Source: Candidatus Poribacteria bacterium
GTDB lineage: Bacteria; Poribacteria; DTPJ01; WJIO01
Assembly: GCA_014730235.1 (NCBI GenBank)
Contig: WJIO01000111.1
Location: 1 to 37,592, forward strand
Reading direction: 5' to 3'
DNA length: 37,592 nucleotides
Shown piece by piece: positions 276 to 25,982 of the stretch (position 1 is its first letter; every line of letters starts with the position of its first letter). The position numbers and the translations under genes are program-made. The notes under the pieces are model-generated. The model was not told the origin of the DNA and did no database searches. It was given only the letters and a program-made list of their open reading frames with translations.

Positions 276-291
276 TGGCATGTTTGTTGCT
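276..291 (+). promoter_or_regulatory. Sigma-54 (-24/-12) promoter
   Basis: TGGCATGTTTGTTGCT matches the sigma-54 consensus TGGCACR-N4-TTGCW, with the invariant GG (277-278) and GC (289-290) separated by exactly 10 bases. Transcription would start near 301, giving a leader of about 70 bases before the PRC-barrel gene at 371. Two almost identical sites precede the genes at 19392 and 25356. Unlike those, no TGTYG-N9-CRACA pair is visible in the 275 bases upstream. Confidence 0.82.
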
Positions 292-2562: not shown

Positions 2563-4143
2563 ATGAAAGAAGAAATCACCAGATGGGCTAAAAGTTTAAT
2601 CAGTCTTAAAGGAAACGTTAAATTTGGGCCTTTGTTTATAGCAGTGTTGTTGTTTTTTATAATCTTATTTATTTCTACACCTGAGAGTTTAATAAATTTG
2701 GTTAAGAAGCAAGATCCTTTAGGATATCATCTTCAATATGGCACGCGTACTATAACTGAAAGTATGAGCAGGATTCATGAAAAGGATTTTTCGCCTGAAG
2801 AAGTAGGCTATAAAGCAAAAATAATGGTAGCAATTCTTCTTCTTGCTGCCTTTTTATGGGCTACGGAGGCAATACCCATAGGGGCTACCGATCTTCTTGT
2901 AGGCGGACTTCTTTATATATTTGGTATTTTACCTGTAGATCAGATACCCAAAGCTTATATGAAAGATGCTGTATTTTTTATTTTTGGTGTTCTGGCTCTT
3001 GCTGTTGGCGTAAGTAAAACCGGTCTGGATAATCGGATAGGCATAATGCTTTTGGGCAAAATAAAAAGTATTGAATCCCTTTGTTTTGTTTTTTTTCCTA
3101 TCATATCAATTATAGCTGGTTTTTTATCAGGTCATGCACTTATGGCTATACTTCTGCCTGTGCTTTTATCGGTATATCATTCTGCCTGTAAACTATATGA
3201 TGTAAAATGTGATCGATCATTAGCTATATTACTCGTATTGGGTGTTTGCTTTTCTCTTAATCAAGGAGGACCTGGATCACCAGCGGCAGGAGGAAGAAAT
3301 GCCATAATGGTGGGATACCTGGAGGATTTTGGCAAACCTATTTTATTTAGACAATGGCTTATATATTCAATGCCTTATGTATTGATCATATCTTTTATTA
3401 CCGGTGTCTACATGTATATTACATTCAAAAGGAAGTTACGTGTTCCAACGGTTAATTTTTCCAAGTTTATCCATAAGGAAACTGATGAATTAGGTAGCAT
3501 CAGCGTTGATGAGATTATAATGACAGTAATTATGTTGGGTGTAATCTTAGCCTGGATAACAGCCAGCAGTAAACTTGGTATGGGAGGTACGTGTATAATT
3601 GGCGTTGCATTAATGCTTATTTCTGGCATAGTCAAATGGGCTGATTTGCAGAAAAAAGTCAGATTTGACGTGGTTGGCCTTTATGCAGCAGCATGTGCTA
3701 TGGGAGTAGCGCTTAAATCTACTGGCGCTTCATTATGGATCGCCAATTTGCTTATAAAAATTTTGCCTTCCTGGTTCAGGCAAGGGAATATGCTGATTGT
3801 TGCTGTTAGTGCAATTACTATGATTCTGACTAACTTTATGAGTGATGGGGCGACTGTTGCTGCAATGGGGCCTATAGCACTGGCAATGTCAGAGGTTTCA
3901 GGCATACATATCTGGAAAGTCGGTCTGGCTTGTGCTTTCTCTTCTTCATTTGCCAACATGCTGATAATAGGCACACCAAACAATGCGATTGCATATATTG
4001 GGGCAACTGATCCTGAAACAGGTGAGAAGCTTTTGAAAATTAAGGACTTTGCAATATATGGTATACCTATAACTATTATTGCTTGTTTAGTTCTATGGTT
4101 TTGGGGTGTTTTTGGATACTGGAAATGGCTTCCCTGGCTTTAG
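2563..4143 (+). CDS. DASS (SLC13)-type anion/dicarboxylate transporter
   Basis: The 526-residue inner-membrane protein has many hydrophobic helices. The layout fits the divalent-anion:sodium symporter family: an N-terminal helix (about 20-40), a long polar loop, and two pseudo-repeats each ending in a substrate/sodium-binding hairpin. The first hairpin is near residues 233-246 (GGPGSPAAGGRN) and the second near 420-436 (TNFMSDGATVAAMGP), followed by GTPNNAIAYIGA near 470. The first hairpin lacks the usual SIGGTAT wording. The substrate is therefore uncertain (dicarboxylate, sulfate or another anion). The start is the only ATG after an in-frame stop at 2521, and its ribosome binding site is poor. 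Its stop codon abuts the target duplication of the next repeat element. Confidence 0.85.
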   Translation: MKEEITRWAKSLISLKGNVKFGPLFIAVLLFFIILFISTPESLINLVKKQDPLGYHLQYGTRTITESMSRIHEKDFSPEEVGYKAKIMVAILLLAAFLWATEAIPIGATDLLVGGLLYIFGILPVDQIPKAYMKDAVFFIFGVLALAVGVSKTGLDNRIGIMLLGKIKSIESLCFVFFPIISIIAGFLSGHALMAILLPVLLSVYHSACKLYDVKCDRSLAILLVLGVCFSLNQGGPGSPAAGGRNAIMVGYLEDFGKPILFRQWLIYSMPYVLIISFITGVYMYITFKRKLRVPTVNFSKFIHKETDELGSISVDEIIMTVIMLGVILAWITASSKLGMGGTCIIGVALMLISGIVKWADLQKKVRFDVVGLYAAACAMGVALKSTGASLWIANLLIKILPSWFRQGNMLIVAVSAITMILTNFMSDGATVAAMGPIALAMSEVSGIHIWKVGLACAFSSSFANMLIIGTPNNAIAYIGATDPETGEKLLKIKDFAIYGIPITIIACLVLWFWGVFGYWKWLPWL

Positions 4144-4149
4144 ATTAAT

Positions 4150-4290
4150 GGCTCTTCCGGGTTCAATGCGGTTATAATTGAGAATTCTCTCAGATTGTCA
4201 TTCCTGCTTCAAGCTTTTTGAAAAAGCTTGAAGCAGGAATGACAGCATATAAAAGTTTCTTATCTTTACCACACTGAACCCGGAAGAACC
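4150..4290. repeat. Type I MITE-like element with 8-bp target duplication
   Basis: The 141-base element starts GGCTCTTCCGGGTTCA and ends TGAACCCGGAAGAACC, a nearly perfect 16-base terminal inverted repeat. It is flanked by perfect direct repeats AGATTAAT at 4142-4149 and 4291-4298. The core is a 24-base perfect hairpin (4196-4219 and 4221-4244) carrying TGTCATTCCTGC. The left duplication overlaps the last two bases of the TAG stop of the DASS gene, so insertion was immediately downstream of the coding end. It encodes no transposase and would need one in trans. Confidence 0.87.
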
Positions 4291-4321
4291 AGATTAATAA
4301 ACATTTTTGAAAGGATTTATT

Positions 4322-6016
4322 ATGGTACATGATGAGTTTATTTATGAAGATTGTATTGCATATTTTTCTATGGAGATTGGTCTTCAGAATGAAATCCATA
4401 CATATAGCGGCGGATTAGGTATTCTTGCTGGTGATATGTTACGTTCAGCAGCAGAATTGGAACTACCTCTTGTAGGGATAACTTTAGTTAGTCGCGCTGG
4501 TTATCTTTATCAAGAAATTGGAGATCAAGGGCAGCAGATGGAACATGAAGACTACTGGAAACCAGAAGACTGGTCACAATCTCTGGAAGCTAAAATTGCT
4601 GTTACTATCGAATCAAGGAAGGTCTGGGTTAAGGGATGGCTTTATTTAATGGAAGGATTATTTGAAAATAGAAAACTACCGGTGATACTTCTTGATACAG
4701 ATTTAGACGATAACAACGATGAAGATCGGAAAATTACCCATTATCTTTATGGAGGTGACAATACTTACCGGCTTAAACAGGAAATTGTGCTTGGGATTGG
4801 TGGTGTAAGGATGCTCAGAGCTTTAGGATTTAATGTACGCAAATATCATCTGAACGAAGGGCATTCCGCGTTGCTGACTCTGGAACTCCTGCGCGATCAC
4901 ATTTATCCAGAGGATGAAATAAAATGGGAGAAGATGCGTTATGACATCCCTGCGGTAAGGGATTTATGCGTTTTTACTGCCCATACACCGGAGAAAGCCG
5001 GTCAGGATGAATTTTCCTATGAATTATTTCAGAAGACGCTGGGAGATTTTATAGATATGGAAATCCTTAAATCTCTAGCCGGTGAAGATAGTGTGAATAT
5101 GACCCAGCTAGCCCTTAACCTGAGTGAATATGTAAACGGTGTAGCCAAGAGTCATGCAGAGACTTCCAGAGAACTTTATCCCGGATATCATATACGCTCA
5201 GTTACAAATGGTGTACATCCCTGCACCTGGACTCATGAAAGCTTTGCTGAATTATATGATAAATATATGAAGGGATGGCGTCATGAACCAGAACTTCTGG
5301 TTCGCGCAGACCAGATACCAGATGAAGCGATATGGGAAGCTCATATGGATTCCAAAAAGGAACTTATATCTATTGTAAAAAAAATGGTAAAAGTAGATAT
5401 GGATAAAAATATACCAATTCTTGGTTTTGCCAGACGCATGACTTCATATAAACGAGCAGATATAATATTTTCTGATATTGATCGTTTAAAGTCAATTGCA
5501 GATGAATGGCCTTTTCAGTTGGTATTCGCAGGTAAGGCTCATCCCAAAGACGATGAAGGTAAAGGAATAATCAAAACCATACATAATTATATAGATGATT
5601 TATCATCAGATATTCGAATAGCTTATCTGCCAAACTACAATATGGATATGGCTTTAAGCATTGTATCAGGTGTTGATATATGGTTAAATACACCTCTTCC
5701 TCCCAGAGAAGCATCGGGCACAAGCGGAATGAAGGCGGCTTTTAATGGAGTTCCTAACCTGAGTATACTTGATGGATGGTGGATTGAAGGTTGTATTGAA
5801 GGGGTTACAGGTTGGGCAATCGGTGATGAAGACAGTGATCCGGATAATGATTATGAATCCCTGTATCGGAAATTGGAGCAAACGGTACTTCCAATGTATC
5901 ATAACGATCGAGCGTCCTGGATTTCCGTTATGAAAGGCATTATTTCCAAAAATGCCCCATTCTTTAACAGTCACCGTATGATGCGCCGTTATGGGATAGA
6001 AGCTTATCTTTTTTAG
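4322..6016 (+). CDS. glgP: Alpha-glucan (maltodextrin/glycogen) phosphorylase, short type
   Basis: The protein, 564 residues from the ATG with GAAAGGA 7 bases upstream, is a GT35 phosphorylase. It releases glucose 1-phosphate from alpha-1,4-glucans using pyridoxal phosphate. The N-terminus IAYFSMEIGLQNEIHTYSGG and LAGDMLRSAAEL are typical of the short bacterial alpha-glucan phosphorylases. HLNEGHSAL and FTAHTPEKAGQDEF follow in the catalytic core. The PLP lysine is K471 in GTSGMKAAFNG. An upstream in-frame TTG at 4307 would add five residues but overlaps the ribosome binding site. Neighbours do not include other glycogen genes; the gene sits between two repeat elements and is probably monocistronic. 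It acts in the cytoplasm in storage-polysaccharide turnover. Confidence 0.93.
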   Translation: MVHDEFIYEDCIAYFSMEIGLQNEIHTYSGGLGILAGDMLRSAAELELPLVGITLVSRAGYLYQEIGDQGQQMEHEDYWKPEDWSQSLEAKIAVTIESRKVWVKGWLYLMEGLFENRKLPVILLDTDLDDNNDEDRKITHYLYGGDNTYRLKQEIVLGIGGVRMLRALGFNVRKYHLNEGHSALLTLELLRDHIYPEDEIKWEKMRYDIPAVRDLCVFTAHTPEKAGQDEFSYELFQKTLGDFIDMEILKSLAGEDSVNMTQLALNLSEYVNGVAKSHAETSRELYPGYHIRSVTNGVHPCTWTHESFAELYDKYMKGWRHEPELLVRADQIPDEAIWEAHMDSKKELISIVKKMVKVDMDKNIPILGFARRMTSYKRADIIFSDIDRLKSIADEWPFQLVFAGKAHPKDDEGKGIIKTIHNYIDDLSSDIRIAYLPNYNMDMALSIVSGVDIWLNTPLPPREASGTSGMKAAFNGVPNLSILDGWWIEGCIEGVTGWAIGDEDSDPDNDYESLYRKLEQTVLPMYHNDRASWISVMKGIISKNAPFFNSHRMMRRYGIEAYLF

Positions 6017-19206: not shown

Positions 19207-19245
19207 TGTTGGTTAGCGAACAACAGTGTCGATTGATAACCGACA
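19207..19245. promoter_or_regulatory. Paired enhancer-like palindromes (TGTYG-N9-CRACA)
   Basis: TGTTGGTTAGCGAACAACA (19207-19225) and TGTCGATTGATAACCGACA (19227-19245) are both 19-base palindromes with arms TGTYG and CRACA. Their centres are exactly 20 bases apart, two helical turns. They lie about 104 and 84 bases upstream of the -12 element of the sigma-54 promoter at 19307, the normal place for an enhancer-binding protein. The same pair architecture occurs at 25056-25094. Confidence 0.72.
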
Positions 19246-19306: not shown

Positions 19307-19322
19307 TGGCATATTTGTTGCG
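19307..19322 (+). promoter_or_regulatory. Sigma-54 (-24/-12) promoter
   Basis: TGGCATATTTGTTGCG has GG at 19308-19309 and GC at 19320-19321 with 10 bases between, as sigma-54 requires. Transcription is expected near 19332, 60 bases before the disulfide oxidoreductase gene. It differs from the site at 25220 by a single base. Confidence 0.85.
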
Positions 19323-19391: not shown

Positions 19392-20738
19392 ATGACAAAG
19401 CATAAATTCGATTTAGTTGTATTGGGAACCGGCCCTGCTGGTAACAATGTAACTTATAAATGTAAAGAAGCGGGATTATCTGTAGCCGTTATTGAATCTG
19501 GTTCTCCTGGTGGTACATGTTCACAGACTGGATGTGATGCAAAGAAACCGTTAGTTAATACAGCAGAAATCCTAGACTGGTTTAACCGCATGCAGGGAAA
19601 AGGTATTGAAGGCAAAGGATATATTGATTGGCAAAAGCTTATAGAATTCAAGCGTGTTTTTACTAAACCTATACCGGGTGATACAAGGGATAAGTTAACC
19701 AGAAATAAAATTCATTTATTTGAGGGAAAACCAAAATTTGTGGATGAAAATACTTTTCAGGTTGGAGAAGAAATAATCTCCGCCAGATGGATTGTAATTG
19801 CTACAGGTGCTCGCACAAAAGAGCTGAATATTCAAGGGGAGGAGATGGTATTAACAAGTGATCAGTTTATGGAACTTGATAAACTACCGGAAGATATAGT
19901 ATTCATCGGTGGGGGATATGTATCCTTTGAGTTTGCGCATGTTGCGGCAAGAGCGGGGGCAGATGTAACCATTATTGAAAAGAATGAGCGGATGCTTGAA
20001 AATTTCGATCAGGATTTGGTTAGATTACTTATTAAGTCCTCTGAAGCTTCTGGAATAGAAGTAGAAAAAGGTAAATGCGTAGATTGCGTCAGAAAGGTAA
20101 ATGAGAAATTTCTGGCGGAATGTAATAAAGGTAGAAATATTTTTGAAGCAGACATATTGGTTCATGGCGCAGGTAGAATACCAAACGTTGATGGTCTTGA
20201 TTTATCCAAAGCCAATATAGAGTTTGGCCCTGATGGCATTCACGTCAATGAATATCTTCAAAGCGTTTCAAATCCGGCGGTCTATTCTGCCGGGGATGTA
20301 TCGGCCACAGATGGGCTTCCTCTAACGCCTGTAGCAACTCTCGAAGGCGCTATTGTAGCCAGTAATATCCTTGAAAATAACAGCAAAACAGTGGACTACA
20401 CAGGCGTTTCAACATCTTTATTCACAGTGCCAGCTTTGGTTTCTGTTGGATTAACAGAGAAGCAAGCAGAGGAGAAAGGTCTGGATGTCACAGTTAATTA
20501 TGAGAATACAAGCGACAAAAAGCTTTATCAACAGTTAGGTGCTGAATATTCTGCATACAAAGTGCTTGTTGATAATAAAACTGAAGATATAGTTGGTGCT
20601 CATATACTTGGGCCTGATGCTTACGAAGTTATAAATATTTTTGCTATAGCTATGAGAGCCGGATTGAATTCTAATGACCTCAAGAAAGCTGTATTAGCAT
20701 ATCCAAGCAAAATATCAACTGTTAAATGGATGTTATGA
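19392..20738 (+). CDS. Dihydrolipoamide dehydrogenase-like flavoprotein disulfide oxidoreductase
   Basis: The 448-residue cytoplasmic FAD/NAD(P) enzyme has the FAD motif GTGPAG at residues 12-17. The redox-active pair is Cys43 and Cys48 in GGTCSQTGCDAKK, with the usual CxxxxC spacing but unusual intervening residues. The second nucleotide-binding fold is FIGGGYVSFEFAHVAAR, and the FAD closing motif is VYSAGDVSATDGLPLTPVA. The C-terminal interface segment reads LAYPSKISTVKWML where classical lipoamide or glutathione reductases have H-P-T-x-x-E; the His and Glu are missing. It is probably a disulfide or quinone reductase of the wider MerA/Lpd group, not a pyruvate-dehydrogenase E3. It is under a sigma-54 promoter. 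Confidence 0.9.
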   Translation: MTKHKFDLVVLGTGPAGNNVTYKCKEAGLSVAVIESGSPGGTCSQTGCDAKKPLVNTAEILDWFNRMQGKGIEGKGYIDWQKLIEFKRVFTKPIPGDTRDKLTRNKIHLFEGKPKFVDENTFQVGEEIISARWIVIATGARTKELNIQGEEMVLTSDQFMELDKLPEDIVFIGGGYVSFEFAHVAARAGADVTIIEKNERMLENFDQDLVRLLIKSSEASGIEVEKGKCVDCVRKVNEKFLAECNKGRNIFEADILVHGAGRIPNVDGLDLSKANIEFGPDGIHVNEYLQSVSNPAVYSAGDVSATDGLPLTPVATLEGAIVASNILENNSKTVDYTGVSTSLFTVPALVSVGLTEKQAEEKGLDVTVNYENTSDKKLYQQLGAEYSAYKVLVDNKTEDIVGAHILGPDAYEVINIFAIAMRAGLNSNDLKKAVLAYPSKISTVKWML

Positions 20739-24276: not shown

Positions 24277-24903
24277 ATGGAAAATAAAGTAAACTTCCTA
24301 CAAAATGAATCGGAACTCCTGCGGGATATTCAGTCTGATGATAGAATGATAGATCGTCAAACCTTGGAATCCATAATATTGTTGGCTGTTGAACTGGCTC
24401 GGGAGGGTAGAGAAGGCAGGAAAATCGGAACTATGTTTGTAATATCTGATTCAGAGGAAACATTAAAACGTTCCAGATGCCTTATACTCGATCCGTTGTG
24501 GAATCATCCGGAATCAAAGAGAAATATCCTTGATTCAAACTTGCGTGAAACGGTTAAAGAATTATCCCAGTTAGATGGAGCTTTTATAGTTTCAAGAGAG
24601 GGTATTGTATTATCAGCTTGCAGGTATATAAATGCCTCTTCTGAGGGTGTTAATATTCCCTTAGGTCTTGGTAGTCGACATATGGCAGCAGCATATATCA
24701 CAAAAGAAACTAACTCTACAACCGTTGTAGTTTCTGAGTCCTCAATTGTTCGGGTCTTTAATAATGGTGATATAGTCGCAGAGATAATACCCGAATTATG
24801 GTTATTAAGAAGACATGGACTTCATATTGAAGGAGCTTATTCGCTTCGTAGTAGTGATGATGTGACTGTGGCAAGTAAAAAAAGTCAGGAATCAGAAGAT
24901 TAA
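24277..24903 (+). CDS. Diadenylate cyclase (DisA_N domain) protein
   Basis: The 208-residue protein makes, or is related to enzymes that make, c-di-AMP from two ATP. The DAC motifs are present: DGA at residues 100-102 in LDGAFIVSREG, and the GSRH loop at 132-135 in LGLGSRHMAAAYITKETNST. The canonical RHR is RHM here (Met136). The N-terminal helix LESIILLAVELAREGREGRK and IGTMFVISDS are typical of stand-alone DAC proteins lacking the DisA DNA-binding part and the CdaA membrane helices. It is probably soluble. No strong ribosome binding site is seen. Neighbours are the sigma factor upstream and superoxide reductase downstream. Confidence 0.85.
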   Translation: MENKVNFLQNESELLRDIQSDDRMIDRQTLESIILLAVELAREGREGRKIGTMFVISDSEETLKRSRCLILDPLWNHPESKRNILDSNLRETVKELSQLDGAFIVSREGIVLSACRYINASSEGVNIPLGLGSRHMAAAYITKETNSTTVVVSESSIVRVFNNGDIVAEIIPELWLLRRHGLHIEGAYSLRSSDDVTVASKKSQESED

Positions 24904-25055
24904 TCAACGAATCTGAAATCGGAAATATTTGTAAAATAACCAGGCGATATTAACCTGATAAAAAACTCCTCCGAATAAGCAGAAGATCTTGTATTGTGTC
25001 TTGTAGACGTAATCCGGCGTTTTAAATCTGAAAAAGAATTACAAAAATCAACTGC

Positions 25056-25094
25056 TGTTGGCTTAAACACAACTGTGTTGTGTTTAAGCCAACA
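25056..25094. promoter_or_regulatory. Paired enhancer-like palindromes within a perfect inverted repeat
   Basis: Two 19-base sites, 25056-25074 (TGTTG-N9-CAACT) and 25076-25094 (TGTTG-N9-CAACA), have centres 20 bases apart and are mirror images. They therefore lie inside a perfect 25-base inverted repeat (25049-25073 and 25077-25101, loop TGT). The -12 element of the sigma-54 promoter is about 148 bases downstream of the nearer centre. Spacing and half-sites match the pair at 19207. The inverted repeat could instead be read as a terminator of the cyclase gene, but no T-run follows. The surrounding gap (24904-25355) has no supported gene. Confidence 0.7.
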
Positions 25095-25219
25095 GCAGTT
25101 GCCCTGCACTCATTTATTCCAGCAATTTTCATCTCTTATAGATGCTTCCCAACACCCTGAATCCAATCATTATTCATCACATTTATAGAACCAGGTGTAT
25201 TTTTTCATCTACAATACTC

Positions 25220-25235
25220 TGGCATGTTTGTTGCG
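25220..25235 (+). promoter_or_regulatory. Sigma-54 (-24/-12) promoter
   Basis: TGGCATGTTTGTTGCG has GG at 25221-25222 and GC at 25233-25234 with 10 bases between. Transcription would begin near 25246, leaving a leader of about 110 bases before superoxide reductase. Confidence 0.85.
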
Positions 25236-25355
25236 CTAAAATAATTACATAAAGTTGGTATCATATCCTGTCTTATTGCTATTGAATCAGGTATTAAGAT
25301 GCTTTTTACAATTCATAATTACCCTATACATAAACAAGATAAAGGAGATTGAAAA

Positions 25356-25718
25356 ATGGCAAGATTTGGCGATGTAATTATTCCTCCTGAAGAAGAAGGA
25401 AAAGAAAAACATGTACCTCATATCCAGGCCCCAGACAAAGTAAAAGCCGGAGAATCTTTTGAATTAGAGGTAGTCGTTGGTAAAGAAGTAGCTCATCCCA
25501 ACACTATAGAACATCATATTAAATGGATTCAGGTTTACGCAAAGCAGGAGGGTTCTAGACCTGTGGTTCATGTCGCTACGCTTGACATGGGTCCAACCTT
25601 TGCTGATCCTAAAGTAACTTTTACGGCTATGCTTGAGAAAACATCCACCATCTACGCTCTGGAATATTGTAATATTCATGGTGTATGGGATAATTCTGTA
25701 AAAGTAGAGGTAGAATAA
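25356..25718 (+). CDS. Superoxide reductase (desulfoferrodoxin centre II / neelaredoxin type)
   Basis: The 120-residue cytoplasmic non-haem iron protein reduces superoxide to peroxide without making oxygen. The ligand set of the square-pyramidal iron centre is complete and correctly spaced: Glu17 and His19 in KEKHVPH, His47 and His53 in AHPNTIEHHIKW, Cys105 and His108 in EYCNIHGVW. It lacks the N-terminal rubredoxin-like centre I domain, so it is a one-iron type. AAGGAGATTG precedes the ATG. It has a dedicated sigma-54 promoter with enhancer sites and is followed by a stable hairpin, so it is monocistronic. This gene argues for an anaerobic or microaerophilic host. Confidence 0.95.
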   Translation: MARFGDVIIPPEEEGKEKHVPHIQAPDKVKAGESFELEVVVGKEVAHPNTIEHHIKWIQVYAKQEGSRPVVHVATLDMGPTFADPKVTFTAMLEKTSTIYALEYCNIHGVWDNSVKVEVE

Positions 25719-25845: not shown

Positions 25846-25982
25846 AATATTGTAATCGTTAAAAAATGAAAAATGTGTTTAGAATAATACCCTTACCACG
25901 ATGGTAAATTACAAAATATGTCATTCCTGCGTTCGCAGGAATGACAACTAAATTGTATTCATTTTTTAACGATTACAATATT
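25846..25982. repeat. Type II MITE-like element with 25-bp perfect terminal repeats
   Basis: The 137-base element has perfectly complementary ends at 25846-25870 and 25958-25982 (AATATTGTAATCG... and ...CGATTACAATATT). At its centre is a 13-base hairpin TGTCATTCCTGCG / CGCAGGAATGACA (25919-25946). No clear long target duplication is seen; the ends are themselves palindromic (AATATT) and a TA duplication is possible. Half copies lie at 6047 and in the chimera at 6438. It sits in the 322-base gap before infC. Confidence 0.82.

Follow-up and report, generated by a model that had tools for sequence, protein, structure and literature searches.

Related regulatory systems

What is known of the control of superoxide and peroxide defence in anaerobes mostly concerns repressors that leave the DNA upon oxidation. 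Sigma-54 regulons of the NtrC type, for example glnA/NtrC, have paired upstream sites, and NorR is a sigma-54 activator with a GAF domain. Sigma-54 control of NO detoxification by NorR, together with roo in Desulfovibrio gigas, is covered in the accessible part of PMC4287179. The Clostridioides difficile rbr-perR-sor operon, as presented in the available sections of PMC11980386, places rubrerythrin and superoxide reductase (SOR) under one control. The sigma-54 regulome of Desulfovibrio vulgaris (Kazakov 2015, PMC4641369, available in part) contains many enhancer-binding proteins (EBPs), mostly governing 1-4 operons each, and three of its motif groups have TGT/ACA half-sites separated by 9-12 bp. 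Nowhere does its main text use the words desulfoferrodoxin, rubredoxin or oxygen. A report of SOR under sigma-54 control was not found in the literature searched, mostly outside subscription journals, nor in the accessible parts of PMC4641369, PMC12316311, PMC10533852, PMC4287179, PMC3820574, PMC11980386, PMC5701242 and PMC12456013, which is weak evidence of novelty.

The window considered here is the whole stretch of DNA that was analysed, 37,592 nucleotides from a Candidatus Poribacteria bacterium. Its SOR gene quite probably belongs to a sigma-54 regulon in which an NtrC-type EBP, likeliest a protein encoded on contig C190, would act from a pair of operator palindromes by DNA looping under oxygen or reactive-oxygen stress. 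In kind the mechanism is familiar; what appears new is its set of targets, its operator and its regulator. The putative regulon resembles NtrC-type systems in its paired palindromes, spaced by about two helical turns and preceding a TGGCAC-N5-TTGC promoter by 93-304 bases, and in a candidate activator with REC, AAA+ and HTH parts. It differs from them in the TGTTG-N9-CAAC letters, in a GAF domain inserted between REC and AAA+, and in its stress rather than nitrogen genes; the C190 EBP scores 380.8 against the NtrC model, under the cut-off of 558.6. A GAF-bearing sigma-54 activator and detoxification targets in anaerobes recall the NorR regulon as far as it is described in the available part of PMC4287179. 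Unlike NorR, however, the C190 EBP carries a REC domain and reaches 360.4 bits against an NCBIfam NorR equivalog cut-off of 476, and none of the operators was seen to adjoin a gene for a flavodiiron protein or an NO reductase. As in the PerR regulon of anaerobes, rubrerythrin and SOR would be under one putative control, but PerR is a repressor acting on a sigma-A promoter, and its analogue in this genome is a separate cluster on contig C423.

The superoxide reductase gene and its upstream region

The features of the SOR locus are the following (window coordinates):
25049..25101, no strand: mirrored operator of the SOR upstream region, 53 bp, recognised by genome-wide recurrence
25056-25094: operator core, 39 bp
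25056..25074, plus strand: left palindrome TGTTG-N9-CAACT, TGTTGGCTTAAACACAAC(T), centre 25065
25076..25094, plus strand: right palindrome TGTTG-N9-CAACA, TGTTGTGTTTAAGCCAAC(A), centre 25085
25220..25235, plus strand: sigma-54 promoter TGGCATGTTTGTTGCG, -24 GG at 25221-25222, -12 GC at 25233-25234
25356..25718, plus strand: one-iron superoxide reductase (neelaredoxin type), 120 aa, by profile and structure matches

The identification of the gene in the sequence-only reading is borne out by three lines of comparison: PF01880 (E 1.7e-31), TIGR00332 (above cut-off) and alignment with solved SORs (E to 1e-27), in which the EKH, HPNT-HH and C-N-x-H segments align. The protein has the PF01880/TIGR00332 domain without an N-terminal desulforedoxin domain, as in the one-iron type. 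The consensus sigma-54 promoter claimed by the same reading is a near-perfect site, scoring 14 of 14.5 in a TGGCAC-N5-TTGC context with standard spacing. Three sites scoring at least 14 are present in the 37.6-kb window, as compared to 0.16 expected from Markov shuffles. A scan of 24900-25400 returned no sigma-70-like promoter, and a sigma-70 reading of the region was set aside.

The genome encodes rpoN (PF04552, E 1e-60, a 506-aa open frame on contig C396) and contains 40 TGGCAYRNNNNTTGC sites against 5 in the control. Exact TGGCAYRTTTGTTGC sites number six, five of which adjoin an operator. The sixth is a possible regulon member at the window edge, where no operator was seen in the 275 bases between the contig edge and the promoter:
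276..291, plus strand: sigma-54 promoter TGGCATGTTTGTTGCT, before a PRC-barrel gene at 371-1084

Several PRC-barrel genes are clustered between 371 and 29364 with genes for six-BON, DisA-type (DAC) domain, DUF2267 and baeRF-family proteins, in what looks like a stress-gene island. Between SOR and IF-3, at 25850-25979, terminal inverted repeats TTGTAATCGTTAAAAAATG and CATTTTTTAACGATTACAA flank a GTCATTCCTGC hairpin; letters like these are met again in locus L141, as is the hairpin in L115, and the element may be a small mobile one.

Around a loop of 3 bases, the mirrored operator has two 25-base arms, 25049-25073 and 25077-25101, each the perfect reverse complement of the other, as had been described from the letters; the longest perfect inverted repeats in Markov shuffles of the window (n = 10) have arms of 9-11. 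The two palindrome centres, 20 bases apart, lie about 168 and 148 bases upstream of the sigma-54 site, in agreement with the earlier estimate of 150-170 bases before the -12 element. This repeat is far beyond chance and, judged by its letters and those of its counterparts, is part of a coherent putative regulon. That it serves instead as a transcription terminator or RNA hairpin is extremely unlikely. As RNA it would fold at -42.4 kcal/mol (z -8.8), and on the minus strand 25098-25052 resembles a terminator whose tail is rich in T; yet no T-run follows the repeat on the plus strand, and no minus-strand gene was found running into it. Moreover, the other operators reach only -11 to -17 kcal/mol as RNA (five of nine folded), and their self-complementarity falls to as little as 18/39, yet the TGTTG/CAAC half-sites and the pairing with sigma-54 sites are kept. 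After the terminator scan and RNA folding, this explanation was set aside in favour of a protein-binding operator.

Recurrence of the operator across the genome

A search for the tandem pattern covered all 5.53 Mb of the genome assembly (451 contigs, completeness 91.6%, contamination 4.8%). With up to two mismatches it returned 13 rows against 0 for a reversed-pattern control, and with up to three, 22 rows (14 distinct places) against 2. Ten of these 14 places were accepted as 39-bp operators, all fitting one dyad with the symmetrised consensus TGTTGGTTA..AcACAACA.TGTTGTgT..TAACCAACA. Their leave-one-out matrix scores range from 16.5 to 39.1 bits; in a single random sequence of 5.53 Mb the maximum is 20.2 bits. 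Since this random peak exceeds the lowest score, that of the C402 operator (16.5 bits), the latter was retained on its promoter. The four places left out (C57:186, C252:4145, C413:38788 and C431:15513) each have three mismatches and a matrix score below 9; around C431:15513, up to 350 bp away, three sigma-54-like sites score 12.5-13.5. Mean identity among the ten operators is 0.64 in the core and 0.32 in the flanks; these unrelated flanks rule out a dispersed repeat.

A sigma-54 site scoring at least 13.5 is found within 350 bp of eight of the ten operators, against a background of 0.077 per such stretch; the remaining two sit close to contig ends, at distances of 164 and 490 bases. The operator centre lies upstream of the -12 element by 157 bases at SOR, 93 at window position 19307, 304 at C101, 293 at C116, 132 at C248 and 187 at C402, and downstream of the sigma-54 site at C190:2187 and C227 (-275 and -243 bases). 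Conversely, when the surroundings of all 40 TGGCAYRNNNNTTGC sites were scanned, only seven had an operator within 350 bp, and the operator thus marks a sub-regulon. In three cases (L141 1918-2260, L145 4766-5075 and L144 5028-5101) some 30 bases separate the operator from the start codon that follows it, and each of these operators is downstream of a sigma-54 site, which in the third case is weak (13.0) and placed before the preceding gene.

For an enhancer, the positions at C190:2187 and C227 are unusual, as the sigma-54 site lies 243-275 bases upstream of the operator and the start codon some 30 bases beyond it. Together with C116:17828, where the operator likewise precedes a start codon by some 30 bases, they would suit a roadblock and speak for an operator bound by a repressor or another regulator acting with or against the sigma-54 activator. 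Such an arrangement is very unlikely: in six of the ten cases the operator precedes the -12 element by 93-304 bases, a distance usual for enhancers, and every sigma-54 promoter requires an EBP. Control by an enhancer-binding activator, as originally proposed, gains from the ten operator places, from the strong sigma-54 site at eight of them and from the presence of rpoN, as well as from 33 PF00158 matches in the genome and one EBP gene bracketed by two operators.

Target genes

The genes beside the operators, with the second operator copy of the window, are listed below:
19207..19245, no strand: second operator copy in the window, 39 bp
19307..19322, plus strand: sigma-54 promoter TGGCATATTTGTTGCG, from the score scan
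19392..20738, plus strand: pyridine-nucleotide disulfide oxidoreductase, 448 aa; none of the equivalog cut-offs shown was reached
Contig C248: rubrerythrin, then aldo/keto reductase
Contig C116: Hsp20, six-BON protein, PEP synthase
Contig C116, other end: cytochrome P460-like gene, then the operator, then a 4Fe-4S ferredoxin
Contig C190: PRC-barrel gene
Contig C227: CHRD/spondin secreted protein
Contig C101: protein of no known family
Contig C402: propeller-like protein; trypsin/phosphoesterase protein

The disulfide oxidoreductase gene is the window's second operon of the putative regulon. SOR produces peroxide and rubrerythrin removes it, so that an oxygen-stress role of the regulon is a fair inference. 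The predicted set as a whole (SOR, rubrerythrin, ferredoxin, disulfide reductase, Hsp20, PRC-barrel and BON proteins) points to an oxygen or reactive-oxygen stress programme.

The candidate activator

Among the 33 EBP-type matches, one gene is singled out by its surroundings:
G000:C190:3530-5509: candidate activator with REC-GAF-AAA+-HTH organisation, 659 aa, PF00158 E 7.9e-74

The protein has REC, GAF and Sigma54_activat domains; alignment reveals the GAFTGA motif and a C-terminal HTH-like NRSWL segment, and no Pfam HTH model reached 0.001. Two operators, at C190:2187 and C190:5500, flank the gene: the first is 1.3 kb before it, ahead of the PRC-barrel gene, and the second overlaps its stop codon. 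No sigma-54 site of at least 11 was found directly before the gene, and no sensor kinase was identified for the regulon. Full-length relatives are C259 (56%) and C361 (55%) in the same genome and G001:C267 (53%) in G001, the one relative genome of the same order; among the matches listed, the other genomes of the 20 searched have only partial ones.

The 3' ends of these related genes are informative. That of C361 is spanned by TGTTAGTAATCAATAACA-GG-TGTTAGTATTTACTAACA, with a sigma-54 site and a TPR gene behind, and a TGTTG-N8-CAACA pair stands just past the stop of G001:C267, with a sigma-54 site after it. The pattern TGTTRN8YAACA-N2-TGTTRN8YAACA, written only once these tandems were known, has its genome-best matches at or just past these two stops (0 and 2 mismatches, respectively). 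At three mismatches it returned 8 rows against 14 for the control in the own genome (G000) and 8 against 2 in G001; because the control exceeded the pattern in the former, only the 0- and 2-mismatch rows were used. No tandem was seen for the C259 paralogue in the 105 bases up to the contig end, and neither the C361 nor the C259 stretch contains an operator-matrix match of at least 8. Related tandem palindromes of different letters, each with a sigma-54 site behind it, are located at the 3' ends of paralogous REC-GAF EBP genes at L115 976-1013 and L265 3208-3245.

From this arrangement, the C190 REC-GAF-AAA+ protein is probably the activator of the regulon. It is rather unlikely that the sigma-54 regulon is served by another EBP (C259, C361 or an NtrC-like protein), the C190 operators then being further targets. 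The genome offers 33 PF00158 matches to choose from, the NRSWL segment is nearly alike in all three REC-GAF paralogues, making cross-binding possible, and the C190 gene has no sigma-54 site immediately 5' of it. Against this stand the bracketing of the C190 gene by two operators, the C361 and G001:C267 tandems at the same 3'-end place with paralogue-specific letters, and the C361 and C259 stretches, in which the operator matrix has no match of 8 or more.

In the mechanism proposed, an NtrC-type EBP, most likely the 659-aa C190 protein, would bind the 39-bp operator as a pair of dimers, the 20 bp between the two palindromes corresponding to two helical turns. Once bound, it would loop the DNA and activate sigma-54 polymerase at TGGCAYRTTTGTTGC-like promoters, the SOR gene being one target of the regulon.

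A second superoxide-defence locus

The sequence-only reading had placed superoxide defence under an enhancer-binding activator rather than a classical repressor. Its positive half is supported for the SOR gene at 25356-25718, which has both the sigma-54 site and the operator; the exclusion of a classical system is not, as the genome carries another locus:
L277 (G000:C423:3500-13000), 3692-5729: second superoxide-defence cluster

There, a Fur/PerR-type regulator, rubrerythrin, a two-iron SOR and Ni-SOD follow in a row, and the 9.5 kb examined contain neither the operator nor any sigma-54 site that scores above 12.5. Superoxide defence is thus split over two loci, a classical-looking branch existing next to the sigma-54 branch. 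The two Fur-family proteins of the genome are encoded on C423 and C277, neither at the SOR locus of the window; a second control acting at the promoter at 25220 is possible.

Conservation in other genomes

An SOR match is present in three of 58 genomes, the own genome and two distant ones (37-38% identity). The operator pattern, with up to two mismatches, matches in 36 of 145 genomes including the own one, the other 35 having 1-3 rows, like the control, and in two of 17 genomes from SOR-bearing lineages. One match with a single mismatch, in the L035 genome before a gene resembling an IclR-type regulator by eye, was taken as chance because its control scored too. Upstream of SOR homologues in other phyla, the operator was found in 0 of 80 (some upstream stretches being shorter than 500 bases) and a plus-strand sigma-54-like site of 12.5-13.5 in five of 80. 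The operator was not found in the relatives searched, and on present data the putative regulon appears private to its own genome.

Biological implications

These features suggest a dedicated, previously undescribed stress circuit. A broader scheme can be put forward only tentatively: a two-component sigma-54 antioxidant regulon, in which REC-GAF EBPs with paralogue-specific mirrored operators at their own stop codons might control an anaerobe's superoxide-to-water pathway (SOR, rubrerythrin and ferredoxin) when oxygen is met, a PerR-type system existing apart from it. Operators in this lineage could be matched to their EBPs by looking at where the EBP genes end. The organism appears uncultured; the operator, candidate regulator and target list are directly testable in a laboratory host. 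If the proposal is true, control by a sigma-54 activator would leave the SOR gene strictly off until both a signal and ATP are provided, a different logic applied to the same genes.
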